Shown here: positions 110 to 47,410 of the stretch, piece by piece | Position numbering within the stretch: position 1 is the first letter of the stretch | Layout: each line of letters starts with the position of its first letter | DNA from: Herpetosiphon giganteus | GTDB lineage: Bacteria; Chloroflexota; Chloroflexia; Chloroflexales; Herpetosiphonaceae | Reading direction: 5' to 3' | DNA length: 54,939 bases | Assembly: GCF_016907925.1 (NCBI RefSeq) | Contig: NZ_JAFBCZ010000037.1 | Location: forward strand, 1-54,939 | Made by a program: the position numbers and the translations under genes | Notes under the pieces: generated by a model | Told to the model about the DNA's origin: nothing | What the model saw: only the letters and a program-made list of their open reading frames with translations | Database searches by the model: none

Positions 110-3100
110 GTTTCAGTATCCTCTCTGCGGATCGATTAATTGGAATTTGCTGGCATTGCCTACCAGATTGTGGTCAATCGCACGTTTCAGTATCCTCTCT
201 GCGGATCGATTAATTGGAATGCCGCAAACGTGGACGCTGCGCGATGATGGTATCAAGTTTCAGTATCCTCTCTGCGGATCGATTAATTGGAATGCCTTTT
301 TTCTTCGGCTGTAAGACAATCGGGAGTGTTTCAGTATCCTCTCTGCGGATCGATTAATTGGAATGGCCACAGCGAGGACACCAGCGCATGCGCTCAAGGC
401 TGTTTCAGTATCCTCTCTGCGGATCGATTAATTGGAATATTCACCAAAGCCTCTGGGCTGAACTGCCTAAGTGTTTCAGTATCCTCTCTGCGGATCGATT
501 AATTGGAATCCGATGGCACGATGATGTCGATCAACGGCATGGCACGTTTCAGTATCCTCTCTGCGGATCGATTAATTGGAATAACGCGCCGCCGATGATT
601 AGACCGCCTGCAACTGCGTTTCAGTATCCTCTCTGCGGATCGATTAATTGGAATCTCAATTTTTTCAAGCCCTTGCTCGATCAGATCGTTTCAGTATCCT
701 CTCTGCGGATCGATTAATTGAAATACGTGCCTTCGTTTTCAGGTAGCGCGGCGTGGGCTGTTTCAGTATCCTCTATGCGGATCGATTAATTGAAATGTTG
801 CCCCAAATCAACAATGATTGCCCTGATTGCAAGTTTCAGTATCCTCTATGCGGATCGATTAATTGAAATGAGGGCGAGGTGTCGAACAAGGCTTTTGACG
901 ATTAACGTTTCAGTATCCTCTATGCGGATCGATTAATTGAAATACACATCGAAAGCAACCACCTGTTAGGAGAAAAAGTTTCAGTATCCTCTATGCGGAT
1001 CGATTAATTGAAATTCGTAGCTCCTGTAGGTTAGTTGGCTTGGTCACTTAGTTTCAGTATCCTCTATGCGGATCGATTAATTGAAATAGTTCATTTATTG
1101 CACCTCTTCAATCGCTAAGTCATGTTTCAGTATCCTCTATGCGGATCGATTAATTGAAATATGCAAGGCGTGATCACGAGCGTGGAATATGAATCAGTTT
1201 CAGTATCCTCTATGCGGATCGATTAATTGAAATATTGTGTAGTACTCGTTATAGTATGGTTTTGGTGTTTCAGTATCCTCTATGCGGATCGATTAATTGA
1301 AATGCGGGGTCGTTCTTGTTTGCGTCAACATGACCGTGTTTCAGTATCCTCTATGCGGATCGATTAATTGAAATTATCGCGCAACAGGCTGAATCCATCG
1401 TGGTCAACGCGTGTTTCAGTATCCTCTATGCGGATCGATTAATTGAAATTTCAGCTTCAGCGCTCTTGATCGACGTGGCTAGTTTCAGTATCCTCTATGC
1501 GGATCGATTAATTGAAATCGCCAAAATCGTTAGCAAACCACTTTGTACCAGTTGTTTCAGTATCCTCTATGCGGATCGATTAATTGAAATTCGGAAAGTG
1601 AGGCAACCCATGGCACACGTTCGCAAGTTTCAGTATCCTCTATGCGGATCGATTAATTGAAATCCTTGGCCGCGCCACGTTCAGTAGCTTTGACCCTAGG
1701 TTTCAGTATCCTCTATGCGGATCGATTAATTGAAATCGTTATAGCGGCGGTTGCGTTTGGCGGTCTTGCCTGTTTCAGTATCCTCTATGCGGATCGATTA
1801 ATTGAAATATAAACCAGCCGTAGACCGCTGCCATGTAGCTGAGTTTCAGTATCCTCTATGCGGATCGATTAATTGAAATGCGTTGCGCCTTGACGTTTGA
1901 TGAATTGGTCAAAATGTTTCAGTATCCTCTATGCGGATCGATTAATTGAAATATGACCGGCCTTGCTGCCGATGTGGAAGCCGCAGGCAAGTTTCAGTAT
2001 CCTCTATGCGGATCGATTAATTGAAATATTGACGCAAACAAGAACGACCCTGCTGGTTTCGACTGTTTCAGTATCCTCTATGCGGATCGATTAATTGAAA
2101 TTAATTAATGGCCGAACGTCCGCAAAGTTTACGTCAAGTTTCAGTATCCTCTATGCGGATCGATTAATTGAAATTTCCGCTCCCATTTTGAAATGTATCT
2201 GGCAACGCTGTTTCAGTATCCTCTATGCGGATCGATTAATTGAAATTTACAAAAGGGAATGCAGCGCGCGATGTTAGTGCAGTTTCAGTATCCTCTATGC
2301 GGATCGATTAATTGAAATCCGGCTTCCTCAGGAAGTGCAGGAATCGTTTCTTGTGTTTCAGTATCCTCTATGCGGATCGATTAATTGAAATTCAGATCGC
2401 ACGCCCGATTAAACAACCCATTGATCGTTTCAGTATCCTCTATGCGGATCGATTAATTGAAATAGCTTTGCGATGATACTGGCAACCTTGACCGAGCAGT
2501 TTCAGTATCCTCTATGCGGATCGATTAATTGAAATATATAGCTCGACCATAATCATGGCCCGCCTTCGCGCGTTTCAGTATCCTCTATGCGGATCGATTA
2601 ATTGAAATCACTACTTGACGCGATTACAATCGTCCGTGTTGGTGTTTCAGTATCCTCTATGCGGATCGATTAATTGAAATTCATTCCGGCGTGCATCGGG
2701 GTTGCCTCGTTGACGGTGTTTCAGTATCCTCTATGCGGATCGATTAATTGAAATCAGACGACATCAAACGCGAGCGTGTTCGGTTGTACTGTTTCAGTAT
2801 CCTCTATGCGGATCGATTAATTGAAATCTGCTTGGGCTTGGGCTTCGACTGGTTACGGTACGTTTCAGTATCCTCTATGCGGATCGATTAATTGAAATCC
2901 AGCCTTGCTGCCGTTGGGCAAGTGGTGCAGTGTTTCAGTATCCTCTATGCGGATCGATTAATTGAAATCATACGATCGTCTTTTTATCTGTGGTATACTA
3001 TCTGTGTTTCAGTATCCTCTATGCGGATCGATTAATTGAAATAAGTTTTTTATCGCAGCGGTACACACTCAAAAGAACGTTTCAGTATCCTCTATGCGGA

Positions 3101-3831
3101 TCGATTAATTGAAATTTGCCGTTGTAATAGACTTCGTAGCCGCCGATAACGTTTCAGTATCCTCTATGCGGATCGATTAATTGAAATTTCGTTGTTTGCC
3201 GCGTAGAGACGATAGAGGCGCGGTTTCAGTATCCTCTATGCGGATCGATTAATTGAAATCGATGCTTTTGGCGAAGCTTGCGCCCTTGCCCTGTTTCAGT
3301 ATCCTCTATGCGGATCGATTAATTGAAATTAAAACCAGTACATCCTGGCGATATCCGGTGGTTGCAGTTTCAGTATCCTCTATGCGGATCGATTAATTGA
3401 AATAGGAAAGTGAGGCAACACCATGAGCCACAAACGCCCGTTTCAGTATCCTCTATGCGGATCGATTAATTGAAATATTCCAGTATCTTGATAGATGATG
3501 GACTTAATGTTTCAGTATCCTCTATGCGGATCGATTAATTGAAATGAAAAAGCCTAAAAATGGGGGTGAAATAATTTCAGTTTCAGTATCCTCTATGCGG
3601 ATCGATTAATTGAAATTTTATTCGATTGTGGAGTTAAAAGCCCAAAGGTAAGTTTCAGTATCCTCTATGCGGATCGATTAATTGAAATATGAACGCTGGC
3701 AATCATTCCGCTGGCTCAAAATGTTTCAGTATCCTCTATGCGGATCGATTAATTGAAATATGCTTGGCCCTGCTGGGCAGCATTCAATATTCGGGTTTCA
3801 GTATCCTCTATGCGGATCGATTAATTGAAAT
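110..3831 (+). CRISPR. CRISPR array, 52 repeats of 37 bp and 51 spacers, type I-B associated
   Basis: Fifty-two 37-bp repeats start with GTTTCAGTATCC and recur every 69-75 bp, giving 51 spacers of about 32-38 bp. The repeat contains a short stem (ATCC pairing with GGAT) and ends in ATTGAAAT, an ATTGAAA-type 5' handle. This indicates transcription on the + strand with the leader at the left. Three repeat versions occur. R1-R8 (110-654) carry CTCTCTGCGG and end in ATTGGAAT. R9 (688-724) carries CTCTCTGCGG but ends in ATTGAAAT. R10-R52 (760-3831) carry CTCTATGCGG and end in ATTGAAAT. Spacer 17 (1304-1337) and spacer 27 (2028-2064) overlap as reverse complements, and spacers 21 and 46 share sequence. 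Repeat R52 is intact, and a possible decayed repeat core follows at 3864-3874. Confidence 0.98.
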
Positions 3832-4124: not shown

Positions 4125-4721
4125 CTAAAGCACATCGTTGCAGAAGCGGCGAAATTCACAATTTACGCAAATTGCTTGTTGCTTGGGCGCTGCTGGCATC
4201 GTTTCATGGGCAATCAGCTGATGGATTTGCTCAATGCTCCGCTCCACATCATTCAGCAGCCGTTGGCCCAACGGAATTTCAACTGCCTTACGCAATGGCA
4301 AGAGGTAGCTAAATCCACGCCGAACTGGCTTTTGCAATTGTTCGGTCAGCAGCAACGCATAGGCAGCTAATTGAGCTTTGACATGGCTGCCAGGCATGCG
4401 TTCCGAGAGCTTGTATTCAACGGGAATACATTCATTTTCTGTAATGATGATTAAATCGAGCATTCCAACCAATCGATAGCGTGTTGAGCGCAGCAAGATA
4501 TCGAACTGACGCTCGCCACTCGTCAAACCATAAGTCCTTAACGAGCGCCGTTCTTCGCGGCCAATTTCTTCGCGATGACGCTCGATGCCAAGCGCCATTT
4601 TGCCAGTTATTGGCCGAACTCGCGGCAAACAATAGCGATAAAACACCACTCTCGGGCAGATTCGATACTGTTTAATGTCGGTAACTTCGAGAAAATAGCC
4701 TGCTTCATCCGTCATCATCAT
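4125..4721 (-). CDS. cas4: CRISPR-associated exonuclease Cas4
   Basis: Cas4 is a RecB-type nuclease with an iron-sulfur cluster that works with Cas1-Cas2 to trim and orient prespacers and select PAMs. The protein (198 aa) shows an N-terminal cysteine (QYRICPR). A RecB nuclease core follows, with an aspartate in LVGMLDLI and the E-x-K motif in PVEYKLSE. A C-terminal cysteine cluster (CVNCEFRRFC) completes a four-Cys iron-sulfur site. A longer upstream frame exists, but an AAGGAG site just ahead of three consecutive ATG codons (4713-4721) places the start there; the third ATG has the best spacing. The start overlaps the cas2 stop region, so translation is probably coupled. It is the last gene of the cas operon. 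Confidence 0.93.
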   Translation of the reverse strand: MMMTDEAGYFLEVTDIKQYRICPRVVFYRYCLPRVRPITGKMALGIERHREEIGREERRSLRTYGLTSGERQFDILLRSTRYRLVGMLDLIIITENECIPVEYKLSERMPGSHVKAQLAAYALLLTEQLQKPVRRGFSYLLPLRKAVEIPLGQRLLNDVERSIEQIHQLIAHETMPAAPKQQAICVNCEFRRFCNDVL

Positions 4722-5019
4722 TGCTCCTTGCGCCCCAGCCATCGTCGTCGTCGGCAACTGGTGCGGCTGGTTTGGGCTTGCCTGATGAACTGCGGCGCTC
4801 AACCCAATCTTTGGCACAAATTGGAATCAGTTCAATCGAATGTTCTTGATTGCTGACTAATTTGCTAATTTTGAGCCATAATTCTTCGCTCAGCGTGCGT
4901 GGAATATCGCCCATAAAAGCGCTATATTGAATCCGTTGCAACGCATAATCAAGGCATAAATCGGCGACTTTTGTGCGAATCCGATCATCCACAATATCGT
5001 AGATTAGTAAGGTTCGCAT
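4705..5019 (-). CDS. cas2: CRISPR-associated endoribonuclease-fold protein Cas2 with an acidic C-terminal tail
   Basis: Cas2 forms the central dimer of the Cas1-Cas2 integrase that inserts new spacers. The N-terminus (MRTLLIYDIVDDRIRTKVA) is the classic first strand of the ferredoxin-like fold with its conserved aspartate. The body continues as usual through IQYSAFMG and IELIPICAKDW. Most Cas2 proteins are about 85-95 aa and end soon after that last strand. This one runs to 104 aa with a low-complexity tail rich in Ser, Pro and Gly and ending in two acidic clusters (ADDDDGWG and SNDDDG). The tail is encoded where cas2 and cas4 overlap in different frames. The start lies 3 nt after the cas1 stop, indicating tight operon coupling. 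Confidence 0.95.
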   Translation of the reverse strand: MRTLLIYDIVDDRIRTKVADLCLDYALQRIQYSAFMGDIPRTLSEELWLKISKLVSNQEHSIELIPICAKDWVERRSSSGKPKPAAPVADDDDGWGARSNDDDG

Positions 5020-5022
5020 GGG

Positions 5023-6036
5023 CTACCACGCTGCAATAAAAGGCGTGTAGGTTTCGCGATCGCCACGCACAAAGGTTGCCAGATGGCGAGCCTGCGATTG
5101 CATAATCACCCGTAAACTGACCCGTTTTGCCTCATAGGGTTCGCTGGCTTCGAGGCGTTTAAATAAGCGCTCGCGAATCATCTCACGGGTATGTTCGCTT
5201 AATCGGCCAGTTTCATCTTGCTCAATCGTCATTTTGCGATTCACCAAGCCCAAAATGGTACGATCAACCACGGTTTGGCGAAATTCTTCAATTAAATCGA
5301 GCACTAATGAGGGCTTGCCTGGCCGATCAGTGTGCATAAAACCGCCATATGGATCAAGCCCCGCCAAAACCAAGCAGCGTTCAATTTGGCTATACAAAAT
5401 GCCATAGCCATAATTCAAGGCACTATTCAGCGGATCGCGTGCACCTTGGGTTTCGCGCCCAGGCCAATCGAGATCACACAACAATAATTCGCGTACTCCC
5501 AGCCAATAGCGCGCAGCACCACGGCCCTCGATGCTCAAGAGCATCGGTCGAATGTGCTCAAGCTGCTCAGGGAGCACGCGCTCGGCCTCAATAATATGGT
5601 CACGCATTTCAGCAATAATCGGCTGAACCCGTTCAAAACAAGCGGGGTCAGCAGTTTTACGATATTTGGCCATCATGCGCAGCAAATTATGTTGATTTTC
5701 TAATTTGCCACAGACGAAAGCCCGAGCCAGCCACGCTCCACGCGCATTTTCAAAGGCTTGGAGTTGGGCACGGCGGGTTTGGACGGTGCCAGTTAATCCA
5801 GCGCTGTAGAGTGAGGCATAGGCAGTGCCAGTGCTACTCAAAAAATGAATCGGAATTCCGTGTTCAGCACAAGCCCGCACAGCATCGGATGAAATGCCAA
5901 CTCCATACGATTCAATAATTACTTGATCGAGAATCAGCAATGGAACTTCGGCCAAGCGTTCTTTTTCGCGCATAACACGCAAGCGGCCTTGATGTTTTTG
6001 AATAAATGTGCCCCGTTCATGGACAATTAATTCCAT
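5023..6036 (-). CDS. cas1: CRISPR-associated integrase Cas1
   Basis: Cas1 is the metal-dependent integrase that joins spacers into the array with Cas2. From the ATG at 6036 the protein is 337 aa, a normal length. The beta-rich N-terminal domain is followed by the helical catalytic domain. The expected metal-binding residues are visible: Glu about 170 in IEGRGAARYW, His about 235 in GFMHTDRPGK, and Glu about 250 in LDLIEEFR. A TTG four codons upstream would also be in frame. The GGAG site six bases before the ATG at 6036 favours that start. The gene sits 18 nt after cas6 and 3 nt before cas2. Confidence 0.97.
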   Translation of the reverse strand: MELIVHERGTFIQKHQGRLRVMREKERLAEVPLLILDQVIIESYGVGISSDAVRACAEHGIPIHFLSSTGTAYASLYSAGLTGTVQTRRAQLQAFENARGAWLARAFVCGKLENQHNLLRMMAKYRKTADPACFERVQPIIAEMRDHIIEAERVLPEQLEHIRPMLLSIEGRGAARYWLGVRELLLCDLDWPGRETQGARDPLNSALNYGYGILYSQIERCLVLAGLDPYGGFMHTDRPGKPSLVLDLIEEFRQTVVDRTILGLVNRKMTIEQDETGRLSEHTREMIRERLFKRLEASEPYEAKRVSLRVIMQSQARHLATFVRGDRETYTPFIAAW

Positions 6037-6054
6037 CGTATGCTCCAAGATTGG

Positions 6055-7014
6055 TTATGAAATTCGATAAACGCCATTGCCTTTGGTGGTATCTTTGCCA
6101 ACTTGAATGACGCTGCCCCAGACCAACAGCGGCAAGAGCAACGCCAGATCGCCGCTATACTCGGCACTACCAACGAGACCGCCAATCGGGGTTTTACGGC
6201 GCTGACGTGCTGAATAACTATCAAGATCGACCCAGTGCGTATCGTTTTGGACGAGCTTAATCGCAGCTGCTGCGCCGAGAAAGGCCTGCCGTTGTTCGTA
6301 GGAAAATGGTTCGCTGCCATGCTCGCGCGCGAGGCCATCGTGGCGCTCGGTCAGGCGTTGAACAATTGGCCGTAACAGGGGCACTTTGAGCAGAATTTTT
6401 TGCTCGATAATGCGCAGTGGAGTCATAAAATGCAGCCTGATGGTCGCGTTTGAGAGCGTTTGCGCAATTTGTTCAGCATCGACCCACGTCATTGGCAAGT
6501 TGGGCGTTTGAATCCGTTGGCTTCCAGCAGCTTGAATAAGCTGGGTCTGATCGTGCAGCAATTGCACAGCGTCAACCTGCTCGACGACAAACCGCCCGCG
6601 TTCCCAATCGTTGGCGGCAACCCGTTTGCCAAGCCCATTCTGGCCCATCATATGTAAAGCCATCGCCACATAGGGAAAAAGCTTGGTTGATTGGCCAATC
6701 AAGGTCAGGCCCCAGGCAAATTGTTCATCGGGGGCGAACGAACCAGCATGATGGAGCGGTGGCCGAATCGCAAATGGCCGCGGAATGTCATTACCACGTG
6801 GCGAATCATCGCGATGCGGAGCCATTAAACTGCTCACCGGACAAGCCTGCAATAACGGGCATTCAGCACAAGTTTTGGCTGCATGATTAGTACAAAAGCG
6901 CTCCCAGAGCGCATTAAAAAACGCGCCGCGCAACGCCGCCCCAGTATGCACGTGCAACTGAAGCGGCGCAATCGCCTTAGCTTGAACGCGAATATGATGC
7001 ACGCTAAAGGTCAT
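6055..7014 (-). CDS. cas6: CRISPR pre-crRNA endoribonuclease Cas6
   Basis: Cas6 cleaves the repeat RNA to release crRNAs with an 8-nt 5' handle. The protein is 319 aa from the ATG at 7014, which follows a TTGGAG site and lies one base after the cas3 stop. The C-terminal half has the glycine-rich RAMP signature of the Cas6 C-terminal domain (GGLVGSAEYSGD, then LLVWGSVIQVGKDTTKGNG). Four N-terminal cysteines (CAECPLLQAC and an upstream C) look like a small metal-binding knuckle. The catalytic residue cannot be assigned by eye; histidines near the N-terminus (SVHHIRV) and in the middle are candidates. It is the presumed processor of both the array transcript and the crRNA-like element at 13087-13174. 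Confidence 0.92.
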   Translation of the reverse strand: MTFSVHHIRVQAKAIAPLQLHVHTGAALRGAFFNALWERFCTNHAAKTCAECPLLQACPVSSLMAPHRDDSPRGNDIPRPFAIRPPLHHAGSFAPDEQFAWGLTLIGQSTKLFPYVAMALHMMGQNGLGKRVAANDWERGRFVVEQVDAVQLLHDQTQLIQAAGSQRIQTPNLPMTWVDAEQIAQTLSNATIRLHFMTPLRIIEQKILLKVPLLRPIVQRLTERHDGLAREHGSEPFSYEQRQAFLGAAAAIKLVQNDTHWVDLDSYSARQRRKTPIGGLVGSAEYSGDLALLLPLLVWGSVIQVGKDTTKGNGVYRIS

Positions 7015-7015
7015 A

Positions 7016-9430
7016 TTAACTCCAATCATCATTAAGTGGGGCTTGCTCAAATGACAAACCACTTTCACTACTATAAGGCAAATTAATAATCCAACGTGGA
7101 TGTTTTAATGCTGCATCTTCTAAGGCGAGAATTAAACCATTTTGTTTGAATTGGGCATATTTTTGTTTACTGATGCCAACAAAATAACGACTAGATTCAA
7201 CATAGTCGTGCTTATTCAATAAATCAAGGTAGGTTGCAACAAGTGCTTGGGGAATAACATCAACATTATCGAAAAGCTGATCAAATTCATCTTCAGTTGT
7301 TTTATCGCTTTCAAAAGGGCGTAAATTATCGGCAATCGATTGAGCATTATTATAGGTTTTTTGATATTCGGCCTGCCATTGCTCAGCAATAATCGAATCT
7401 GCATAAATATTATCAAGCCATTGATCAATCAGCGATTCGTCGATAACTGTACCGTTATGTTTTTCCAACTCGTCGAGTGTAACTTGAATGATCCGGCCCT
7501 GATGATTCGGATCTTTATTGCGGCCATATACGCCTTGGCCATCACGCGGTTCGCAAAACACATGCACAGGAACAATGCCCTTGCTGCGCGACCGATTTAC
7601 CCGCCCAAAGCGTTGTAAAAGCGCCTCAAGTGGTGCTGGATCACTATACAACGTATCAAGATCAATATTTAAGCTGACTTCGATTACTTGGGTTGCAATC
7701 AAAATAAATGGTTCAGGTTGGGCTAAGCCTAATTGACAGCGTTGCATAATTATTTGTTCGAGTGCACTACGATCTTTTATCGTAAACCGACTATGAATTA
7801 ATAAAAGATCTACTTTTTCGATTCCAGCTTCATTCAAGAGTGCTAAAATTGTTTGAGCACGTCGAACTGTATTAGCACAGACCAAGACTTGCTTGCCAGC
7901 TTTGAAATCGTGAATAATCTGCTCAATACTGCTGGATGAAGTCAATTCGCCATCAAGTAATTGCAAACGATGACGAGCAAAGGCTCGAAATAAATCTTCT
8001 GATGCTTGAATAATTTGAGGCTGACCCAAGGCTGTTGATAGCTTCTCGCGAATGATTTTAGGGAATGTCGCTGACATCACAAAAAAAGTTGCCGCAAAAT
8101 GCTTGGATAAATAATTAATTAAACAAATAATCAAGGCAAGGCGTTGTGGCTCGTAGGCATGAATTTCATCGAAAATAAACCGCGCTTGGGCATAGTCGCT
8201 CAATATCGCCTCAAAGCCCTTAATTTGAAATAAAGCTTTAAGCATTTGATAGGGACTGAATACCTTTAGCGGTCGCGCATGTAAACTATTAATATTCCGT
8301 TCCCAGCGTTCTCGCTCGGCAGCTGTGCGTGAATCAAGCCCATTTTCACTCTCTAGCAAGCGTAGATATAAAACCTGCAAAGCTCGACCGTGTTGAAGAC
8401 CTACCGCTTGTTCGCCAAAGCCTTTATCTGGCTGACGTAAACGGTCAAACATAGCATTCATACTCGCTTGGAAAGGCAAGGCATAGAAAATACGCGGAAT
8501 TAATTGCTGGCCCTCACCCAAAGCCCAATACAATGCAGCTTCGGTCTTGCCGCTTCCAGTTGGCGCAATCAGCAAACATGATGCTCCATGGGCTTGAGCA
8601 CTGTGGTGCTGATGGCTATAAACTTGTTGGTCGCCGCGCAGAATCCGTTTGGCCAAGGCTTGCCAGCTTTCTTGCAGCGGCGAGGGAATGCTTGTTAAAT
8701 GCGCTGATGCCATATGATCGGCAGTGGTTGTCAAGCCGCGCAGCAAAATTAGCAGTGGAACCGGCGCATGCTCAGGCTGATCATCGAAAACTTGTTTTAA
8801 TCGATAATATTGGCGTAACCAATAGCGAATGCGGCTACATGCATCAGTTTGAACCTGCTGAATTGCCTGTTCTGAATTGGGAAATTGCAAAGGCCTAACC
8901 CCAAACGACTCAAGCCCCAACACCCTAATCCACTGGTTGGCATATTCGCTCAGCCAGCGCCACATCAACGGCACATTGGCACGATCAAATGTCGACCAAG
9001 CATCAGCGAGCACACTATCAATCAGATATTTTTCTTGAATAACGCCACGATCGCGATGATGCGAGGCAATGGCCGCAGCCAACCATGCTTGTTCATGTTT
9101 CGGAAAATTAGCAGCAATCCAATCTAAAAATGCTAATGAGATTACTTCATGGCGATGACCATTCCACGAAACACCCTGCAATTGTTGTTGAAAGCCACCA
9201 GTGGCTTTGCCAAAATCATGCAGAAAGCAGCCCCAATACAGCAGATGCCAAAGATCTGCTGTATTGGCCACAACGGTTAAATCTGGCCGATTTTTTGCCA
9301 ATTCGGCAACTTTTTTCACCACCAACCAGGTATGACGGGCCAGCGTTTCGGGAATATTATGCTCGCTACGATCAGCACTTTTGGCCAAAATGGGCATGAG
9401 GAAGTCTGGCTCAACAAAACCATCACTCAT
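7016..9430 (-). CDS. cas3: CRISPR-associated helicase-nuclease Cas3 (HD plus SF2 helicase)
   Basis: Cas3 is recruited by the type I effector complex, unwinds target DNA and degrades it. The 804-aa protein has an N-terminal HD nuclease domain with His33, His71-Asp72 (HDFGKA), His94 and His124-His125. A superfamily 2 helicase follows: Walker A near residues 289-296 (APTGSGKT), motif II DEIH at 421-424, motif III SAT at 453-455, and motif VI QRFGRVNR at 606-613. Domain order and length match intact HD-helicase Cas3. The start is five bases after the cas5 stop, with an AGGAGG site inside the end of cas5. All key motifs are present, so interference is likely functional. Confidence 0.97.
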   Translation of the reverse strand: MSDGFVEPDFLMPILAKSADRSEHNIPETLARHTWLVVKKVAELAKNRPDLTVVANTADLWHLLYWGCFLHDFGKATGGFQQQLQGVSWNGHRHEVISLAFLDWIAANFPKHEQAWLAAAIASHHRDRGVIQEKYLIDSVLADAWSTFDRANVPLMWRWLSEYANQWIRVLGLESFGVRPLQFPNSEQAIQQVQTDACSRIRYWLRQYYRLKQVFDDQPEHAPVPLLILLRGLTTTADHMASAHLTSIPSPLQESWQALAKRILRGDQQVYSHQHHSAQAHGASCLLIAPTGSGKTEAALYWALGEGQQLIPRIFYALPFQASMNAMFDRLRQPDKGFGEQAVGLQHGRALQVLYLRLLESENGLDSRTAAERERWERNINSLHARPLKVFSPYQMLKALFQIKGFEAILSDYAQARFIFDEIHAYEPQRLALIICLINYLSKHFAATFFVMSATFPKIIREKLSTALGQPQIIQASEDLFRAFARHRLQLLDGELTSSSSIEQIIHDFKAGKQVLVCANTVRRAQTILALLNEAGIEKVDLLLIHSRFTIKDRSALEQIIMQRCQLGLAQPEPFILIATQVIEVSLNIDLDTLYSDPAPLEALLQRFGRVNRSRSKGIVPVHVFCEPRDGQGVYGRNKDPNHQGRIIQVTLDELEKHNGTVIDESLIDQWLDNIYADSIIAEQWQAEYQKTYNNAQSIADNLRPFESDKTTEDEFDQLFDNVDVIPQALVATYLDLLNKHDYVESSRYFVGISKQKYAQFKQNGLILALEDAALKHPRWIINLPYSSESGLSFEQAPLNDDWS

Positions 9431-9435
9431 TTAAC

Positions 9436-10152
9436 CTAGCCTCCTAGAAATGAATGAAAAATCAACCCACGCGCAAAGCCATTGGCGGTAACTTCCTCAG
9501 GATCAGCTAGATAATGATCGTGCTCGAAGTGGAGAAAGTTGGCATGGTTTGAATAAATTCGCCGATTCAATGTGACATAGCGCTCCCAGATTGGCTGCCG
9601 ATCATTGTAGTAATCCAACATGCGAGGCATTAATGTGACAAGGCCACTTGGAATCCGAGTCGCCATCTCAAACGGCAGCAATGTATGTTCAAGATAAATC
9701 TGATCGCGCGGTTCTAATGTGACCGTTGTTACCGACCGATAACTAAATAAATCTTGCGAACGGCCTAAAACGACGGCGTAGTGGGGGCTTTTAAACGCAG
9801 CGAGCAGATCAACGCGGTTGAGATACAAGGTTAGGCGTGGTTGAAACAGAATTTTACGCTGAAAGGGATTCACATTGCCTTCAAGCACCTTCGGGTAGTT
9901 GGTTTGGGGCAATTTGCCCGATGAAGCCGAAAGCACATGAATATGCTCTAAATCTTCAGCCTCGCCAGCATAGGTAAAATGGTAGGCAAATTGAATTCCG
10001 CTGGGGTCAATCCAATCACCAACTGCTGAGCAAATATGGCCATAAATTGTTGCGGGCGGCGGCATAGTAAAACTTGGCTGCACGCTTAATGCAAAGTGGG
10101 GGTAGCGGAAGGACGTAACTACGCCCTCCGCCACAATTTTCAAAACATCCAT
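9436..10152 (-). CDS. cas5: Type I-B Cascade subunit Cas5 (Cas5t-like)
   Basis: Cas5 caps the 5' handle of the crRNA in the effector complex. The 238-aa protein opens with MDVLKIVAEGVVTSFRYP and continues to PPPATIYGHICSAVGDW. This is the conserved N-terminal RAMP-like strand-helix pattern of Cas5t proteins of Tneap-type I-B systems. A longer in-frame start exists upstream. The AGGAG seven bases before the ATG at 10152 and the 10-nt spacing from the cas7 stop support the shorter start. Its close packing between cas7 and cas3 fits co-translation of the complex subunits. Confidence 0.93.
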   Translation of the reverse strand: MDVLKIVAEGVVTSFRYPHFALSVQPSFTMPPPATIYGHICSAVGDWIDPSGIQFAYHFTYAGEAEDLEHIHVLSASSGKLPQTNYPKVLEGNVNPFQRKILFQPRLTLYLNRVDLLAAFKSPHYAVVLGRSQDLFSYRSVTTVTLEPRDQIYLEHTLLPFEMATRIPSGLVTLMPRMLDYYNDRQPIWERYVTLNRRIYSNHANFLHFEHDHYLADPEEVTANGFARGLIFHSFLGG

Positions 10153-10162
10153 CAATCTGCTC

Positions 10163-11224
10163 CTATTCCATCCAGTGATGGTTTTCGGCGACCAAAATGC
10201 TTTCGGCAAAGTTCAAGAAGGCTTCGCGAGGATGACTTAATTGAATCGGCGCAGACGAGTTGGCAAGATAGCTTTCAAAGGCTTGGCGTTCTTGATCGTT
10301 GTAGCCGCGCACCCAGCCCACATATACCGGCGAAAGCAGTTCATCGGCAAATACGCGCAAGGCTTCATCAAGCGCAGCTGTATTGATCGTTGGCTTGCCC
10401 CGATCGGTTGTGGTCACAACATGATTGAAAATATGATTACCGCCCTTGGTGACTGCAAAAATCGTCAAGACTGGCGCGACATCGGTGTAGTGCAAGGTTT
10501 GCTTGGCTCCACCTTCGAGATGCGCCATGCCTTCAAACAGGGTTTTAACCCGCTGTTGGCGTACTTCTAAAGGCAAACGATAGGCTTTGGCTTGCTCAAG
10601 GTGTTCAAGTTGTTGCTGTTTGGCCAGCCCTTCGCGCACCGAATCGAGGTTGCGGAAACCAGTTTTGTTGCGGTAGGAAAAAGTGCCAGCAGCCCGCAAA
10701 TCAAGCGACCATAAGCCCTTCAAGGTTGCACGATAAAATTGATGGACATGGGGAACTGGATCACCTTCGTGGCGCGACATCGTACCAAAATCTTTCACAA
10801 TTTTGACTGATTTCATTGCTACCAACGTTCCAACCCGAAATGGTGAAACCCTAGTGATCGTGTCGGTTGTTTCAGTCGCTTGATTTAAGTCACGCTTAGG
10901 TTTTGCTGATTCTTTTTTGGATGGCGCACGCATGTAGCCAAACAAATCGTCATCCCACCATTTCATAGGGTTGGCATCAGTATAGGCAATTTTATCTTCA
11001 CGATATATTGGAGAAGCAACCCAAACAGGAAAACGATCCTCCAAAGTCGTACGCAGCCAATAGCGGAAAGCTTGGGCAGAAACGTAGGGGTAATCGCCAT
11101 CACCATAAACCTGAATATGTTTGACTCCAACGGTATTAGCATCACGTTCTTTTTCAATACCACCAAGATTATTTAATGCTGATGCTGAGGCATCGATCAA
11201 GAGTAATCCCGTAACAAAGGCCAT
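10163..11224 (-). CDS. cas7: Type I-B Cascade backbone subunit Cas7 (Cst2/DevR-like)
   Basis: Cas7 forms the helical backbone that coats the crRNA spacer. The 353-aa product begins MAFVTGLLLIDASASALNN and has the conserved DANTVGVKHI and YPYVSAQAFRYWLR segments. These are typical of the Cst2/DevR branch of Cas7. An AGGAGG site eight bases ahead fixes the start. The 46-nt gap to cas8 is the largest in the operon and shows no terminator-like hairpin. The same family in Myxococcus is named for development (DevR), but here the full cas context argues for a CRISPR role. Confidence 0.94.
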   Translation of the reverse strand: MAFVTGLLLIDASASALNNLGGIEKERDANTVGVKHIQVYGDGDYPYVSAQAFRYWLRTTLEDRFPVWVASPIYREDKIAYTDANPMKWWDDDLFGYMRAPSKKESAKPKRDLNQATETTDTITRVSPFRVGTLVAMKSVKIVKDFGTMSRHEGDPVPHVHQFYRATLKGLWSLDLRAAGTFSYRNKTGFRNLDSVREGLAKQQQLEHLEQAKAYRLPLEVRQQRVKTLFEGMAHLEGGAKQTLHYTDVAPVLTIFAVTKGGNHIFNHVVTTTDRGKPTINTAALDEALRVFADELLSPVYVGWVRGYNDQERQAFESYLANSSAPIQLSHPREAFLNFAESILVAENHHWME

Positions 11225-11270: not shown

Positions 11271-12734
11271 TTAATGTTTTGGTTCAGGTCGTTCAGGCAG
11301 TGCATCTGGATTCTGTCCCAACCAATCCTTTAATTGTTCGATTATGCGAATTAGTACCAGATCGCGTGATAAGCGCCAATCATGGTGTTTATCACTGTAT
11401 TGGCGTTCAAACACATCTACATATTCATCAATCGTAAATAATGGCTCTTTAGTTACGCGCACATAATCTTCATTAGATTTAATCAATCCTTGACGAAAAT
11501 TAGTATAATCAGATTCACCAGCAAATGTCCGAAAAAAGCGTTTACCGTTTTCAGCACGAATATAATTGGCCAATTTATCACCAAATTGCTTAATCCGTTC
11601 GATCCGCAGATCATCCATCAGAAAAACCTCCCTTAGAAAAAGCTCAACCACCGGAAAATCGATCAAATGATAGGTATCATGCAAGTAATAGCGTGATTGA
11701 ATATCATCATCAATCCTAGTCAAATATGGCATTTTGAGAAAATATCTACGTATAAAGTATTTGGCATTGTTAGGTAGATCAAACATATCTTCATAAAAAT
11801 AATTACGGCGTGGCACAAAATCATTATTTGATTTTTTACCAGCGCTTTGCTCCCACGAGCTATGGACTAATTGATTCCATTGCTTTGGGGAATGGCCTTT
11901 AGCTTTGATCATAAAATGAATAGTTTCATGTGGTAGCTCATAAATTGCTAGACTTGGTGTTTTACCATTGTTCAGGTTGTAGGCTACAATACTGGTAATT
12001 TGGTCATCATCAACGTAATTTTCGCGTTCGGCTTGAATTTCAAACAGTGTCTCAATTAATAAGGTTTTTGGAGAGCGCACTTCGCCTGGAATCCGATCAT
12101 CGCCGGCAATATGCGCGTGCCCAATCTTGAGCTTGTTCCGCTGATAAAAGGTTTTAGCAAAATTTAAGGTTAGGCGTGGGTTAGCCGAGTGCACTACCAG
12201 AATGCCATTGCCGGCTTTGGCGCTCCCCAGTGGGAAGGCTTGTAAGGCCAATAAGGCGATGCCCGAAACTGGCAACCCAGCATTACCATTGGGAAAAAAG
12301 TTGATCGTATCATCCCCTTGCAATAAGGGAATTTGCGCCCGTGCTGCTCGGCCAACAGTTAATGTATTTGATAAAACCTCTGCAACCGCTGGCTCGCCAG
12401 TAAAAACACAACGGTGCTCGCTGGTGCTTGGTTGTTGCCATTGGCGCAAGTGAGCATCGGCCAATTTTTTGCGGGTTGCGCGGCGAGTTGCCCGCTGTTC
12501 GTCAGTCAATTGCGGCTTATCGGGGTTGTAAGCATCTTGGATAAACCAGGCATTGCTGGTAAATGCAACGGTGAGAAACGAGCGCAAAGGATTTACCACA
12601 AACTCAGCCTCAAGATAGGCCGCCACGGTTTCAAGATCATCGGCAGTAACCGCCGTGATGCTATTTTTATTGACGTGGGCGGCAATCGTGGCAAAACCAA
12701 CATCTACCAGCGGATGCCCAGTTTCCTTAAGCAT
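11271..12734 (-). CDS. cas8b: Type I-B Cascade large subunit Cas8 (Cst1-like)
   Basis: The large subunit recognises the PAM and helps recruit Cas3. The 487-aa protein is the expected size and position, first of the Cascade genes. The segment NFFPNGNAGLPVSGIALLAL and the following PLGSAK region resemble the Cst1 (Cas8a1/Cas8b) family. That family is named for paired CxxC motifs. Here only a single cysteine remains at the first site (RCVFTGEP) and no second pair is visible, so zinc binding may have been lost. An AGGAGG seven bases before the ATG supports the start. Family assignment rests on short motifs and gene order, so the exact subtype label is less certain than the role. Confidence 0.85.
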   Translation of the reverse strand: MLKETGHPLVDVGFATIAAHVNKNSITAVTADDLETVAAYLEAEFVVNPLRSFLTVAFTSNAWFIQDAYNPDKPQLTDEQRATRRATRKKLADAHLRQWQQPSTSEHRCVFTGEPAVAEVLSNTLTVGRAARAQIPLLQGDDTINFFPNGNAGLPVSGIALLALQAFPLGSAKAGNGILVVHSANPRLTLNFAKTFYQRNKLKIGHAHIAGDDRIPGEVRSPKTLLIETLFEIQAERENYVDDDQITSIVAYNLNNGKTPSLAIYELPHETIHFMIKAKGHSPKQWNQLVHSSWEQSAGKKSNNDFVPRRNYFYEDMFDLPNNAKYFIRRYFLKMPYLTRIDDDIQSRYYLHDTYHLIDFPVVELFLREVFLMDDLRIERIKQFGDKLANYIRAENGKRFFRTFAGESDYTNFRQGLIKSNEDYVRVTKEPLFTIDEYVDVFERQYSDKHHDWRLSRDLVLIRIIEQLKDWLGQNPDALPERPEPKH

Positions 12735-12736
12735 GG

Positions 12737-12979
12737 TTAAACCTCCTTTTGAACTTTCAATCCATATTGGTTAGCAAATCCATAGATGAATGGAATTTGC
12801 GATTCCTGAAGAACTAACCAATAGATAGCGCCAATCCAATGACCAGTCGCCAATGGAAAAGCTTGACGGAAGAGTTTCAATAATTGCTCAAATTGACCTT
12901 TCTGCCCGATCTTTTCAAAGCGTAGACCAATCCGACCTTGTTCCAAGTCTTTCAAAACAGCTAGCGGTTGTGGCTTCAT
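12737..12979 (-). CDS. Small protein of unknown function, first ORF of the cas operon
   Basis: This 80-aa ORF has a strong ribosome site (GGAGG four bases before the ATG) and its stop lies two bases before the cas8 ATG, with the cas8 ribosome site overlapping its end. It is therefore probably translated and coupled to cas8. The sequence starts MKPQPLAVLKDLEQGR and has a hydrophobic helix-like middle (HWIGAIYWLVLQES). I do not recognise a family. Possible roles are a small effector subunit, a regulator or a small toxin, but none is shown by sequence. Its position directly downstream of the crRNA-like element and cas promoter makes it the first product controlled by them. Confidence 0.65.
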   Translation of the reverse strand: MKPQPLAVLKDLEQGRIGLRFEKIGQKGQFEQLLKLFRQAFPLATGHWIGAIYWLVLQESQIPFIYGFANQYGLKVQKEV

Positions 12980-13026
12980 ATACCCTCCAAAGTAAGCGTT
13001 GAAAGCATTTTACCACACTTTCAGCC

Positions 13027-13049
13027 TTATCGTAGGATAATTTAAATCA
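13027..13049 (-). promoter_or_regulatory. Seed-match site and copy 1 of a direct repeat in the cas promoter
   Basis: On the - strand ATCCTACGATA (13038-13028) is identical to 11 nt of the spacer-like segment at 13131-13121. It overlaps the predicted -10 box. The identity extends outward as a direct repeat of about 22 bp (copy 2 at 13121-13142), with one substitution and one inserted base. It may be the DNA target of the crRNA-like RNA, or an operator for the adjacent WYL regulator. Confidence 0.6.
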
Positions 13050-13063
13050 ACAAAATTTGTCAA
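13034..13063 (-). promoter_or_regulatory. Predicted promoter of the cas operon
   Basis: Reading the - strand, a perfect -35 box TTGACA (13063-13058) is followed after 18 bases by TATCCT (13039-13034), a 4/6 match to the -10 consensus. The predicted transcript would begin near 13027 and precede the first ATG (12979) by about 50 nt. The -10 lies inside the 11-nt sequence that is repeated in the spacer-like part of the upstream mini-CRISPR. Confidence 0.6.
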
Positions 13064-13086
13064 ACTTATGAATTTCCTATATACTC

Positions 13087-13174
13087 ATCCTAACTAGTGA
13101 CGCGCTGAGCGTACTGAAACTATCGTAGGATTATTTACAATCACCATCGATCCGTTGAGGATACTTTTCTGAGT
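13087..13174 (-). ncRNA. Degenerate mini-CRISPR; candidate crRNA-like cas-regulating RNA (CreR type)
   Basis: On the - strand, directly after the WYL stop codon, a degenerate repeat (about 13174-13133) contains GTATCCTC, then CGGATCGAT, then ATTG and AAAT. These are the same blocks as the local CRISPR repeat, in the same order, with small indels. The ATCC/GGAT stem is kept. A 12-nt spacer-like segment (13132-13121) follows. Next comes a second degenerate repeat starting with an exact GTTTCAGTA (13120-13112), whose stem is rewritten as ACGC pairing with GCGT at the same place. Cas6 could thus process it to a short crRNA. Its segment matches 11 nt at the cas -10 region. Known CreR and CreA RNAs have this design. 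Expression and a dedicated promoter are not shown; read-through from the WYL gene is possible. Confidence 0.65.
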
Positions 13175-13175
13175 G

Positions 13176-14177
13176 CTACTCGTCCGTATACAACTCTAAG
13201 GCTGCTTGTAATTCGTCGACCATCTCCTGGCGAAATGCCAGCGGCCATTCAACTGCAACATCGCGGCCCCAACCTCGCACCCATGGCCGCATTTCCAAGG
13301 TGCTCCCAACCCGCACCCCATAGCGACAACCACCATTGGGCAAATCTTCAATAACTTGGCTGGGATGCCAAATTGTTTCTTTGACCCGATGGGCAACGGC
13401 TGGTGAAAAAAGCAAACGTACATCAACCGGATCTTCGCCTTCAGCAGGCCAGATAATGCCCCAAGCATTGCCAAGCCGCTCTTGTGGATCAAATGACACG
13501 GGAATTTCAAACGTATCGAATACCCGTAAATTAGCTGTAGCAATCCGTTCAAGCTTGAAAGTGCGAATCGCATTCGACTTACTATCGTGGCCAATTACAT
13601 AGGTTGAGTAGCCAATGCCCGATACTTCTAAATAGTAAGGTGAGATAGTCCGCTGCTCCCAATTGCTATATTTGGATTTAGCTGAGAGATAGGTTACCTC
13701 GACTCTGCATTGATCAGCCCAAGCTCGGGCAAAGGTTTCAAAAATTTTCGTAAACCCAGCATCTGCTGGGCGCTGGCGGACAACATTCGCTGCCTGTTGA
13801 ATATGTAAACCAATATTGCGATGATTATTGGCCAAAGCACTGCCAAGTTTATCTAAAGCAGAAACAACATAGGGATTATGTTTATCGCTTTGTTTAGAAA
13901 GTAACCTTGCAGCTAGATAAAATGCTAATGCTTCGCGTAAATTAATTGGTAAGCGATGAATATAGCGATCGCGATCCAAATACCAGCGCGAGCCAGCTTG
14001 ATAAATCGGTTCACCTTCTTGTTCCATAAACTTCAAATCTTTGTAAATTTGGGTTCGATGAATATCAAAGTGTTCAGCAATCTCAATGACCTTTGCACCT
14101 TGGTTGCCACATTCATAGAGGTAGCGGGCAATTCCATATAAGCGGGCAGCTCTTGCTCGTAGGCGATCATCGCTCAT
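13176..14177 (-). CDS. WYL-domain transcriptional regulator with HTH, cas-linked
   Basis: The 333-aa protein has an N-terminal winged HTH of the DeoR/HTH_11 type (VIEIAEHFDIHRTQIYKDLKFME, residues about 25-50). The middle resembles a WYL sensing domain, with the key segment as GIGYSTYVIGHD rather than a strict WYL, followed by FKLERI. A WCX-like C-terminal part ends in PWVRGWGRDVAVEWP. WYL proteins next to CRISPR loci often act as regulators that sense nucleic acid or nucleotide ligands. The gene lies upstream of, and in the same direction as, the cas operon, with 196 bp between its stop and the first ORF. It may bind the 22-bp direct repeats in that gap. Confidence 0.88.
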   Translation of the reverse strand: MSDDRLRARAARLYGIARYLYECGNQGAKVIEIAEHFDIHRTQIYKDLKFMEQEGEPIYQAGSRWYLDRDRYIHRLPINLREALAFYLAARLLSKQSDKHNPYVVSALDKLGSALANNHRNIGLHIQQAANVVRQRPADAGFTKIFETFARAWADQCRVEVTYLSAKSKYSNWEQRTISPYYLEVSGIGYSTYVIGHDSKSNAIRTFKLERIATANLRVFDTFEIPVSFDPQERLGNAWGIIWPAEGEDPVDVRLLFSPAVAHRVKETIWHPSQVIEDLPNGGCRYGVRVGSTLEMRPWVRGWGRDVAVEWPLAFRQEMVDELQAALELYTDE

Positions 14178-14248: not shown

Positions 14249-14467
14249 TTAATCCCAGTAATCTAATGTAGCGATTCTTAATCGGTTGTTAAATTCATCA
14301 AACTTCACTTTTTTCTCAATCTCTGGTAAATCGCGGAGGATTGTGGAGTTGGGCACATCAAGTAATTTGGCAAGTTCAGCGGGAGTTACGCCATCAGGAT
14401 CGGCTTGACGTACCAGTTCAACAATTTTAGCGTGACGTTCTTGTTTTGCCTTTTTGTTGCCAAACAT
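14249..14467 (-). CDS. Small HTH DNA-binding protein
   Basis: This 72-aa protein is almost entirely one helix-turn-helix domain. A basic N-terminus (MFGNKKAKQERHAKI) is followed by DGVTPAELAKLLDVPNSTILRDLPEIEKK, a DeoR/HTH_11-like reading pattern, and then a short wing. A TAGGAG site precedes the ATG. It ends 71 bp upstream of the WYL gene on the same strand, so the two may be cotranscribed and regulate the cas locus together. No ligand domain is present. Confidence 0.75.
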   Translation of the reverse strand: MFGNKKAKQERHAKIVELVRQADPDGVTPAELAKLLDVPNSTILRDLPEIEKKVKFDEFNNRLRIATLDYWD

Positions 14468-14516: not shown

Positions 14517-14537
14517 TTGTAGTAACTAACGCTACAA
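14517..14537. promoter_or_regulatory. Short dyad upstream of the small HTH gene
   Basis: Arms TTGTAG (14517-14522) and CTACAA (14532-14537) are separated by nine bases, 50 bp upstream of the HTH gene. The size and place fit an autoregulatory operator, but the arms are short. Confidence 0.3.
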
Positions 14538-38906: not shown

Positions 38907-41900
38907 TTAGCGATTAACCATAATCACCGGTGCATAGATCGTCGTGTTAATCGCCCACTTGTAGACACTCCCCGAACAGAAATCGGTCGATTTTGTGCCA
39001 GTACCGTTATCGTCGGTGGCCACCCGCAGAGTTGCACTCAAGGGGGCATTGGCCCAGGTATAGTTGAGCGTACGCGAAGCCCCAACCGCCAACGGCTGAT
39101 CCAGCACAAAGCTTTGTAAGGCCGTATTGCCGTGATACAGGGTCAATGGCATGCCCGCCGGAATGGCCACATTCCCACTCGCATTCTCCAAAATAATGCT
39201 AATTTGGGTGTTTTGTTGAACGACGCGTACTAAGAGTCCATTATCGCGACACATGGCATACAACACCACTTCATCACAACCCTGGCCTTGGTTATCGTCA
39301 GTCACACAAACCTTGGTAGCATATTTGCCAATTGCGGCATAGGTATGGTCTGCGCTGGCAGCTGTTACTTGGGCAGCCAGCGGCAGCGTATCAATCACCC
39401 CATCGCCCCAATCAATGCTGGCGGTCTTGGTATCGTTGGCAAATGGATCGCTCAAGGCCAAATCAAGGGTAAATTGCTCGTTATAGATTTGGAATTGATC
39501 AGGGCCAGCAGCAACCATTGGCGCAACATTGCGCACAATCACCGTGCCATTCAGAATCGTTTCGCCGCCATCATCATCAAGAATCTTGACCGCAACTGGA
39601 CGGGTCGTGGTTCCATCAATCGAGCGGGCATCAAAGCGCGTAATTGCCGTGTTCGAATCGTCGAACGCCCCATCGTTATCCAAATCCCAGGCCACGCTCA
39701 ATGGATCGTAGCTGGTTCCAGCATCGTCGATCATTACTGCAAGCACGCCAAACTCGCCTTCGTTGACAACCATGGTGTTGGTAAACAGCCCAGTTGGGGC
39801 CAAATTCGCCACACTGAGATTGGCACTCGTGGCAGTTACAGCGCTCGCTTCATCGGCCAAGGCGGTTGCTTGAATGCTGATTGGCGTACCAGCGTCGTCC
39901 TCAGGATAGAGAATGCCAATCGTTGCGGTCAAACTTGCTCCAGGTGCAAGCATCAATTGCTCAGGCAGCTCCAACACATTGCCAATCCGCAGCTCAACAA
40001 TATCGGCTTCGGCTGGCAAATCAAGTTCGATTTGTAGATTATTGGCGGTGGCTGAGCCTTGGTTGACGATCGTCACCAGATATTCAACTGCTTCGCCTTC
40101 GTTGATTGCGCTCCGATTTGGCGTAATCGTGACGGCTAAATCAGCAGCAGCTGCAACCTCAGCGAAGGTGTAAACGGCATTATTGTTCAAATCCTCATCA
40201 TACGAATCGCTATCAACGGCGACCAAGGTTTCCAGATATTCCCGTTGATCAGGATTAATCTTGAGCGTCACCGCAACCGTTGCAACCTGACCAACTGCCA
40301 AACTTCCCAACTGACAACTGACCAATTCAGCTTCTTGAACACAGCCAACGCTGGCAGTATGCAAACTTGTACCTGCTGGGAGATAGAATTCCAAGACCGT
40401 TTCGGCTGCAACCGATGGCCCAAGATTGGTGATTGTCGCGGTAAGGGTGGCCAATTCGCCAGCATTCACCACGTCTGCATAATCAACCGTCAAATCGAGA
40501 TCCGATAAACGTTCGACCGTAAAGGCCACTTCGCCACGATTATCAATTGCTGAGGTTTCGCTATAAATTGTTGTATCGTTGACCAACAACTCACTAGTAT
40601 GTGAGATCAAGGAGCCTTCAGCAACATCGGGCTTGACCTGCCAAGTCAGCGTTTTGGCGCTATTTTGGCTGCCAGCGGCAATATCGCCAATGCTACAACT
40701 CAAGCTAGTTGTCGTACCATTCGTTGCCACGCCACAGCCATCAGCATCAGCAAGCGTCACCAATGTATTATTCAGCATGCGTTCAGTTACGATGACATCA
40801 CGCGCTGGATTAAGGCTGATATTCTTCGGTGCAAGGATGTAGCTGTAGCTTTCGCCGGCAACCACATAGCCTTCAGTCAAACCCTCGTAGCCCATCGCCA
40901 CGTCGGTCGTCAGTTCGTTGGCTTGAACCGTGACATACAATGGAATCGTTTGGGTATAGCCAGCGCTCGCCGCATGCACCAAGACTTCGTAGCTACCAGG
41001 AGCAGTATCAATCAATGGGCTTAGTTGCAGATTGACCAGTTGCCCAACTTCAGCAGTAGCACTCGACAAGCTAGCAAAGAACAATGGCTGATCGGATTTC
41101 TGTTCAATAGTAAGTTCAATTGGCTGATTCCAATCATTGCCATCGACCGTCAAAACATAGGGCGCGCCAACTTCATGCGGTCGAGCCGCTTGATTCTCAA
41201 CTGCTTCGACATAGAAGCCAGTTACTGCAAGATTAAGGGTTTTGGTGTAGGCATGTTCATTATCAAAAGCCAACAAGGTAATTGGGTAATCGCCATACTC
41301 AAGATCAAGCGTATCGGTAAGAATCAAGCGCGTTTTTTCGCCTGGCATAAAGCTTGAGCGGGTGAATGACCAATCAACACCAGCTGGCATATCTACCACA
41401 TCAACGAAAACCTCATCACGTTCGCTAAATTGATAGGTTGCATCAATCTCAACGCTGGTGCTATTGAAATTCGTCAGGGTCAGATTATCGACACTGGTGC
41501 GCAGGCTAAAGTCTGGTTCGCGCACCGTCACTGGAATACTGAGATAGCGCTCGCTGCCATTCGACAAGGCCACCAAGGTCACGGTGTAAGTTCCACCAAG
41601 CAAACTGGCGGCTGGGGTTAGCACCACGCTCGATTGAACTCCAACCAAGGTTGGGGTCAGAATTGGCGTGTTAATTTGGGCTGCAAAGCCTTCAGGCAAT
41701 TCGGCAATTTCCAAAAACACTTGCTCTGGATAAGGATTGACACTCGAAGCAATCGTCAAATTGCTTGTGCCTGCCACGCCAGCATCCAAGGTTAATCCAC
41801 TTGGATTGGCACTGATGCTGAATGGCGCAACCAATGGCGTTGCCGCAGCAAAGCTCGACTCCGACGTTCGACCTGTACCTGAATCGTAGCCAACGATCAT

Positions 41901-47111: not shown

Positions 47112-47410
47112 AGAAGCTCCCTTATTAATACCACCAAGCCTACAATTGAACCCAAACAAGGCCCTGAAAAAAGGCACACTCAAATAGCCAGCAGGCTTAA
47201 GCGCTTGTGCCGAGAAAACGAATTAAACAAAGCTGTTGCGATGAGATAGCGACAACAATACGCCTATTACCAACGCCTGCCTATAGGCTATTCGTCCTAT
47301 CGAGCAATTTATCCCCCATAGCACCAACAAGCACTATAATGAAGCATGGACTAATGACGCATAGCTTGCTCCGACGAGTGTTGATCTCAGCCACAAATGA
47401 GGTGTTGCGC

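Follow-up and report, generated by a model that had tools for sequence, protein, structure and literature searches.

A candidate CreR-type mini-CRISPR between a WYL regulator gene and the type I-B cas operon of Herpetosiphon giganteus

The window, that is the whole stretch of DNA analysed, is a contig of 54,939 bases whose minus strand carries a type I-B cas operon in the order cas8b, cas7, cas5, cas3, cas6, cas1, cas2 and cas4. The first cas gene, cas8b, occupies 11271..12734, the genes from cas7 to cas4 follow at 4125..11224. Directly upstream on the same strand lies a gene for a WYL-domain regulator (13176..14177), its open reading frame ending at 13176. The gap between the WYL gene and cas8b holds a candidate mini-CRISPR unit as well as orf80, an orphan gene of 80 amino acids. 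In H. aurantiacus the spacing between the WYL gene and cas8b is 18 bp, and the whole segment with unit and orf80 is absent. A small HTH gene (14249-14467) is located further upstream, near the WYL gene. It is preceded on the minus strand by the palindrome TTGTAG-N9-CTACAA (14517-14537), the H. aurantiacus counterpart of which (L001:4626-4646) reads TTGTCG-N9-CGACAA; both arms have changed together. This palindrome is probably the operator of the HTH/WYL pair. A large open reading frame of 2758 amino acids was observed at 38907-47183 on the minus strand. Rfam models at gathering scores had no match within the window.

The orphan gene orf80 (12737..12979, minus strand) heads the operon behind the promoter matched by the candidate guide; 2 nt separate its stop from the start of cas8b. 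It appears coding-like: its own frame scores 0.25 per codon, the five other frames from -0.62 to -0.01. Across 158 genomes, the top match outside the own genome had an E value of 0.006, not above noise, and no match was obtained in phages, plasmids or Pfam; the Pfam search thus gave no KilA-N domain. A structure model had low confidence (mean pLDDT 56.2). The operon leader contains a mini-ORF of 33 nt and 10 codons (12976-13008, minus strand). Its stop overlaps the orf80 start, and inspection by eye revealed no clear Shine-Dalgarno sequence.

The CRISPR array of the window comprises 52 repeats (110..3831) with the crRNA sense on the minus strand. Variant repeats are located at the low-coordinate end, as is expected for the leader-distal end. 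A second array of seven repeats of the same family was present on another contig of the genome, C20 (L060:10749-11209); in the 13 kb covered around it, none of eight proteins from the cas region of the window had a match. From both arrays and from H. aurantiacus 154 spacers of 32-38 nt were collected. The 57 spacers of the own genome were searched against 158 genomes of the class, scoring two first-look candidates per listed genome, and roughly half of those of H. aurantiacus (1,911 letters) against the six genomes of the genus. Spacers of these two origins had matches in other Herpetosiphon genomes (L073-L075, L079, L080, L085-L087, L089, L090, L092 and L093), one of them perfect in the alignment. 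One H. aurantiacus spacer matched the plasmid of its own genome (G043:C2:76855-76887). Spacers and protospacers were aligned in both senses, and the side of the conserved flank identifies ACTGAAAC as the handle of the crRNA. Fourteen protospacers of 13 spacers with at most six mismatches gave the PAM, mostly CCC and partly CCT, the triplets being CCC (8), CCT (2), ACC, GCC, CTC and CAC (1 each); matches with at least seven mismatches were left out of this count, namely c0 (CTG), hb4 and hb71 (both CCT), two w46 rows (GCA and CTT) and w35. Read in the crRNA sense, the repeat ends in the same handle in 11 other genomes with arrays seen.

The crRNAs accordingly read ATTTCAATTAATCGATCCGCATAGAGGAT followed by the handle ACTGAAAC, and since the protospacer flank fixes this handle, the RNA of the candidate unit is predicted from the plus strand, divergent from the cas operon. 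An earlier note on this DNA had proposed a mini-CRISPR upstream of the cas operon and had placed it on the minus strand, which turns out to be the antisense. This minus-strand reading, with other boundaries, was also the first one followed here, and was rejected once the protospacers had fixed the orientation. In that reading the target would have AAT beside it, as every spacer has from its repeat, and the first nucleotide of the guide would be mismatched. On the plus strand the flank is CCT, a triplet of 2 of the 14 protospacers, and the first 18 nt have mismatches at positions 12 and 18 only. With the strand the order of the repeats is reversed as well, the "second" repeat of the note being psiR1 and its "first" psiR2, and the RNA that it expected from 13174 down to 13087 gives way to a predicted transcript running up the plus strand from about 13092. 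The orientation of the repeat should be fixed by the PAM before such units are read.

The two degenerate repeats flanking a 12-nt segment, as described in the note, were recovered by alignment between the WYL gene and the cas operon. The block near 13133-13169, psiR2, reached a score of 35 against the array repeat, a value attained by none of 2000 shuffles and none of 1004 background stretches. The psiR1 block (13084..13120) was less similar to the local repeat, with a score of 20 that 180 of 2000 shuffles and 54 of 1004 background stretches also attained. Against the repeat of G056, a genome of the same order, it scored 38, and 0 of 2000 shuffles came up to this; the G056 repeat had been selected after the repeats of several relatives had been viewed. 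On the plus strand psiR1 consists of the stem ACGC/GCGT with the loop GCTGA (13100-13112) and the intact 8-nt handle ACTGAAAC (13113-13120), all eight positions being conserved. In psiR2 the stem is ATCC/GGAT with the loop GTTGA (13150-13162), and the handle is worn to ACTTTTCT (13163-13170). An intact handle in psiR1 and a lost one in psiR2 agree with the rule described for CreA RNAs (PMC9458426). Degenerate repeats outside the array and beside the cas operon are a feature of CreR units, while the near-identical repeats and the 32-38 nt spacers of an ordinary array are missing here.

The note had also pointed to the unusual stem of psiR1, and this stem indeed pairs, one pair being a double change absent from every other aligned repeat. 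The alignment consisted of 11 distinct repeats, typed by hand from the arrays and the candidate unit. All stem cells paired (44/44), more than in any of 500 shuffles, and both the count of cells carrying a double change and the covariation score of the stem were likewise above all 500. The numbers of pairs with double changes (reached by 131 of 500 shuffles) and of pair types (450 of 500) in this alignment were not above the shuffles, nor was the fold of the whole RNA (z 0.43). Seven single repeats folded alone had z values from -0.28 to -1.72. When psiR1 is folded by itself, the predicted minimum structure leaves the handle partly paired.

The nominal spacer between the repeats (13121-13132) has 12 nt, in comparison to 32-38 nt in the arrays. 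Together with the first 5 nt of psiR2 it forms the candidate guide (13121..13137, plus strand), which matches the predicted cas promoter at nt 1-11 and 13-17. The target TATCGTAGGATAATTTAA (13028..13045, plus strand) covers the predicted -10 box of the cas promoter and is bordered by the PAM CCT (13025..13027), as CreR targets are by theirs. Sixteen of the first 18 nt match; the mismatches at 12 and 18 are both multiples of six, and the match fades past position 18. By arithmetic, two random mismatches in 18 positions would both fall on multiples of six in 3 of 153 cases. A recurrence of 11 nt at the cas -10 region had been reported in the note. It holds, as TATCGTAGGAT has exactly two exact copies in the genome of 6,159,747 bases, at 13028 and 13121, but the further match at nt 13-17 and the PAM had been missed. 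The copy at 13121 begins exactly at the junction of handle and guide, and the other adjoins the PAM.

Several counts describe how much of this match is expected by chance. The combination of seed and CC-N PAM, CCNTATCGNAGGAT, has one site without mismatch in the 6.16-Mb genome and 11 more with one mismatch. Tested against the promoter at the ten seed positions, 59 of 109,528 17-mers from the window match, many of them from array repeats. A CC PAM accompanies only two of the 59, namely the guide and a site at 29173. All 15 positions (1-5, 7-11 and 13-17) are matched by two of the 109,528 17-mers, the guide and its own complement. In 200,000 shuffled promoters the seed occurred eight times, and once together with a CC PAM.

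Two promoters were predicted in this region. The putative creR promoter (13057..13085, plus strand) has the -35 box TTGTCA, 17 nt spacing and the -10 box TATACT, with a transcription start inferred near 13092; that of the orf80-cas operon (13034..13063, minus strand) has TTGACA, 18 nt and TATCCT. Each agrees with the consensus in 10 of 12 positions. They are divergent and their -35 boxes overlap, thus they probably compete. Three promoter-like sites were present in the 451 bases scanned, in comparison to 0.6 in shuffles. In 230 nt scanned on the plus strand the sole terminator-like site was located at 13356-13371, about 190 nt past psiR2 (1 versus a shuffle mean of 0.4), and transcription of creR would head for the 3' end of the WYL gene. 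The minus strand had no terminator-like site from the promoter to the cas8b start; three weak ones were found early in cas8b (3 in the scanned region versus a shuffle mean of 1.7).

The two-repeat mini-CRISPR on the plus strand quite probably encodes a CreR-type RNA with which Cascade represses the orf80-cas8b operon. The sequence itself holds the repeats, the handle, the stem, the match between guide and target, the PAM and the promoters as consensus matches; transcription, processing, binding and repression are what we infer from them. Transcription would start at the creR promoter on the plus strand. Cas6 would cut after the stem of psiR1, leaving the handle, and a second time in psiR2, yielding a predicted mature RNA of about 50 nt (about 13113-13162). 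Loaded Cascade would recognize the CCT, and guide nt 1-5, 7-11 and 13-17 would pair over the cas -10 box, blocking transcription from orf80-cas8b onward; this pairing is presumably too short for cutting by Cas3. The block would be lifted if Cascade is lost, if anti-CRISPR proteins act or if crRNAs are abundant. A block of the operon promoter by Cascade is expected by analogy with the type I-B CreA (PMC8501985) and the Acinetobacter CreA (PMC10097628) as they are described there. The autoregulation of the cas promoter by a CreR-type RNA suggested in the note is thus in its core the best-supported reading, with another strand, repeat order and RNA. Typical for CreR is a guide whose seed matches the promoter of its own cas operon in part; in the present case this operon starts with orf80, and its promoter is predicted from the consensus. 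Points against the CreR reading are the minority PAM, the 12-nt nominal spacer, the distance of the plus-strand terminator, the pairing of the handle in the psiR1 fold, the terminator-like sites early in cas8b, a first gene that is not a cas gene, the absence of the unit from H. aurantiacus, and the failure to find it in the other cas loci searched.

Of 158 genomes of the class, 28 had a relative of cas8b, as did 29 of 400 genomes sampled from the phylum; both counts include the own genome. The comparison covered the cas loci of 26 further genomes in the class and of nine outside it, some of them short contigs, and left out G118 with its weak cas8 match. A comparable unit was not found in the cas loci of these 35 genomes under strict or looser rules, in a search that requires the handle ACTGAAAC, which is present in the arrays of only 11 of the searched genomes; units with other handles would escape it. 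In 432,834 unmasked bases (29 stretches and the window) the exact handle occurred 13 times outside arrays, and only that of the window was combined with seed and PAM. With up to two mismatches in the handle (2917 sites in the same stretches and the window), four matches with PAM lay outside the window and were set aside as chance. A match in L109, one of the nine loci outside the class, sits at the array of that locus and is not a second unit. Under looser rules without a PAM rule, a full seed match within 1000 bp occurred at 8 of 335 handle-like sites; the seven outside the window had neither an exact handle nor a CC PAM and were rejected, the one in L105 lying within a coding sequence. IMG/VR contained no exact copy of handle plus seed. 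The absence from the searched relatives counts against a deep conservation of the unit.

Some other observations were made in these loci. At another of these seven sites, about 1.8 kb upstream of cas8 in L108 (genome G317), a direct repeat TTCCC(C/T)CATGTTCTCCCC was present in two copies 83 bp apart, the first behind ACTGAAGC; it is probably not a pair of guide and target, the flank being AAC. An element of 38 bp upstream of cas8 in G064 (L035:9474-9585) occurs in two copies 36 bp apart, resembling a duplicated unit of repeat length with an insert of spacer length in between; G065 (L063) has a single copy (92 %). Compared by eye the element is unlike the repeat of G064 itself, and was set aside. 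The cas8b relative in L015 (genome G012) was read with two internal stop codons and may be broken or misassembled.

In an alternative we regard as unlikely, the guide is a CreA-type antitoxin that represses a toxin, either a CreP-like orf80 protein or the leader RNA, so that loss of Cascade poisons the cell and the repression of cas genes is a side effect or a second role. This would suit orf80, a coding-like first gene behind the target without a relative above noise, in a segment absent from H. aurantiacus. The Acinetobacter creTA described in PMC10097628 also occupies an intergenic stretch of some 400 bp that a related strain lacks, and its creA is divergent from a 33-bp mini-ORF, comparable to the 33-nt mini-ORF at 12976-13008. 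This mini-ORF, however, has no clear Shine-Dalgarno sequence by eye, and orf80 has no Pfam match, the KilA-N domain named as typical of CreP (PMC12737573) not being seen. With 2 nt between orf80 and cas8b and no terminator-like site on the minus strand before cas8b, repression should extend to the cas genes irrespective of whether orf80 encodes a toxin. Both functions may also be united in one guide, for which the chances are likewise low: orf80 would be a CRISPR-guarded toxin as first gene of the cas operon, and a minimal guide would set cas expression and poison Cascade-disabled cells. Such a dual role would be packed into a 12-nt spacer with pairing completed by the repeat, and a single promoter whose -35 box overlaps that of the guide promoter.

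A decayed mini-CRISPR that has lost transcription or processing, the promoter match being a leftover or chance, is very improbable; both repeats are strongly degenerate and the unit was not found in relatives, but degeneration has spared handle, stem, guide and PAM, one stem change is compensated, and the promoter match is not expected by chance. Least credible is TATCGTAGGAT as operator of a protein regulator with incidental repeat blocks: the WYL and HTH genes lie upstream and the copy in the promoter, TATCGTAGGATA, forms an imperfect palindrome (10/12 by eye), but the genome has no further exact copy of the motif, it is not found within one mismatch upstream of the WYL/HTH genes of either strain, where a different palindrome with covarying arms occupies the site, and its copies fall precisely at the handle-guide junction and beside the PAM.

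If the CreR reading is true, RNA-guided autoregulation of cas genes extends to a type I-B system of the Chloroflexota. The unit would be a compact natural example, with a nominal spacer of 12 nt and the rest of the guide taken from the second repeat. It also makes a testable prediction on the minimal pairing for repression by Cascade without cutting. The distinctive variant seen by the note in the short spacer is weakened by the continuation of the pairing into psiR2 and by the 20-nt psiS described in PMC10097628. CreR RNAs are presented in a review as crRNA-like regulators of cas operons of type I and type V-A systems (PMC12737573), and they are also named in PMC12948488. The class is thus known, and the Herpetosiphon unit would be a new case of it with predicted processing and repression; among the titles and abstracts listed on CreR, Herpetosiphon CRISPR or Chloroflexota Cre systems, none describes it. 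The unit resembles the CreR of the review (PMC12737573) in the mini-CRISPR beside the cas operon, the guide with a partial match to the cas promoter and the expected repression by Cascade. It differs from the CreR outlined there by the nominal spacer of 12 nt with psiR2 completing the pairing and by an orphan gene before cas8b. The type I-B CreTA of Haloarcula hubeiense/hispanica, according to PMC8501985, shares the arrangement psiR1-psiS-psiR2, a seed of nt 1-5 and 7-11 beside the PAM and a handle better kept in psiR1, and in H. hubeiense creTA is also located upstream of the cas operon. The target reported for it is a toxin promoter (PMC8501985), whereas the promoter targeted here drives orf80 and the cas genes. 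The CreTA of Acinetobacter sp. WCHA45, as described in PMC10097628, is similar in its strain-variable intergenic region, the shortened psiS of 20 nt, the CC PAM, the divergent layout and the critical role of nt 2-5, 7-9 and 13-17. In the account of PMC10097628 it differs by belonging to subtype I-F, by a toxin that is an RNA with a mini-ORF, and by a target other than the cas promoter.
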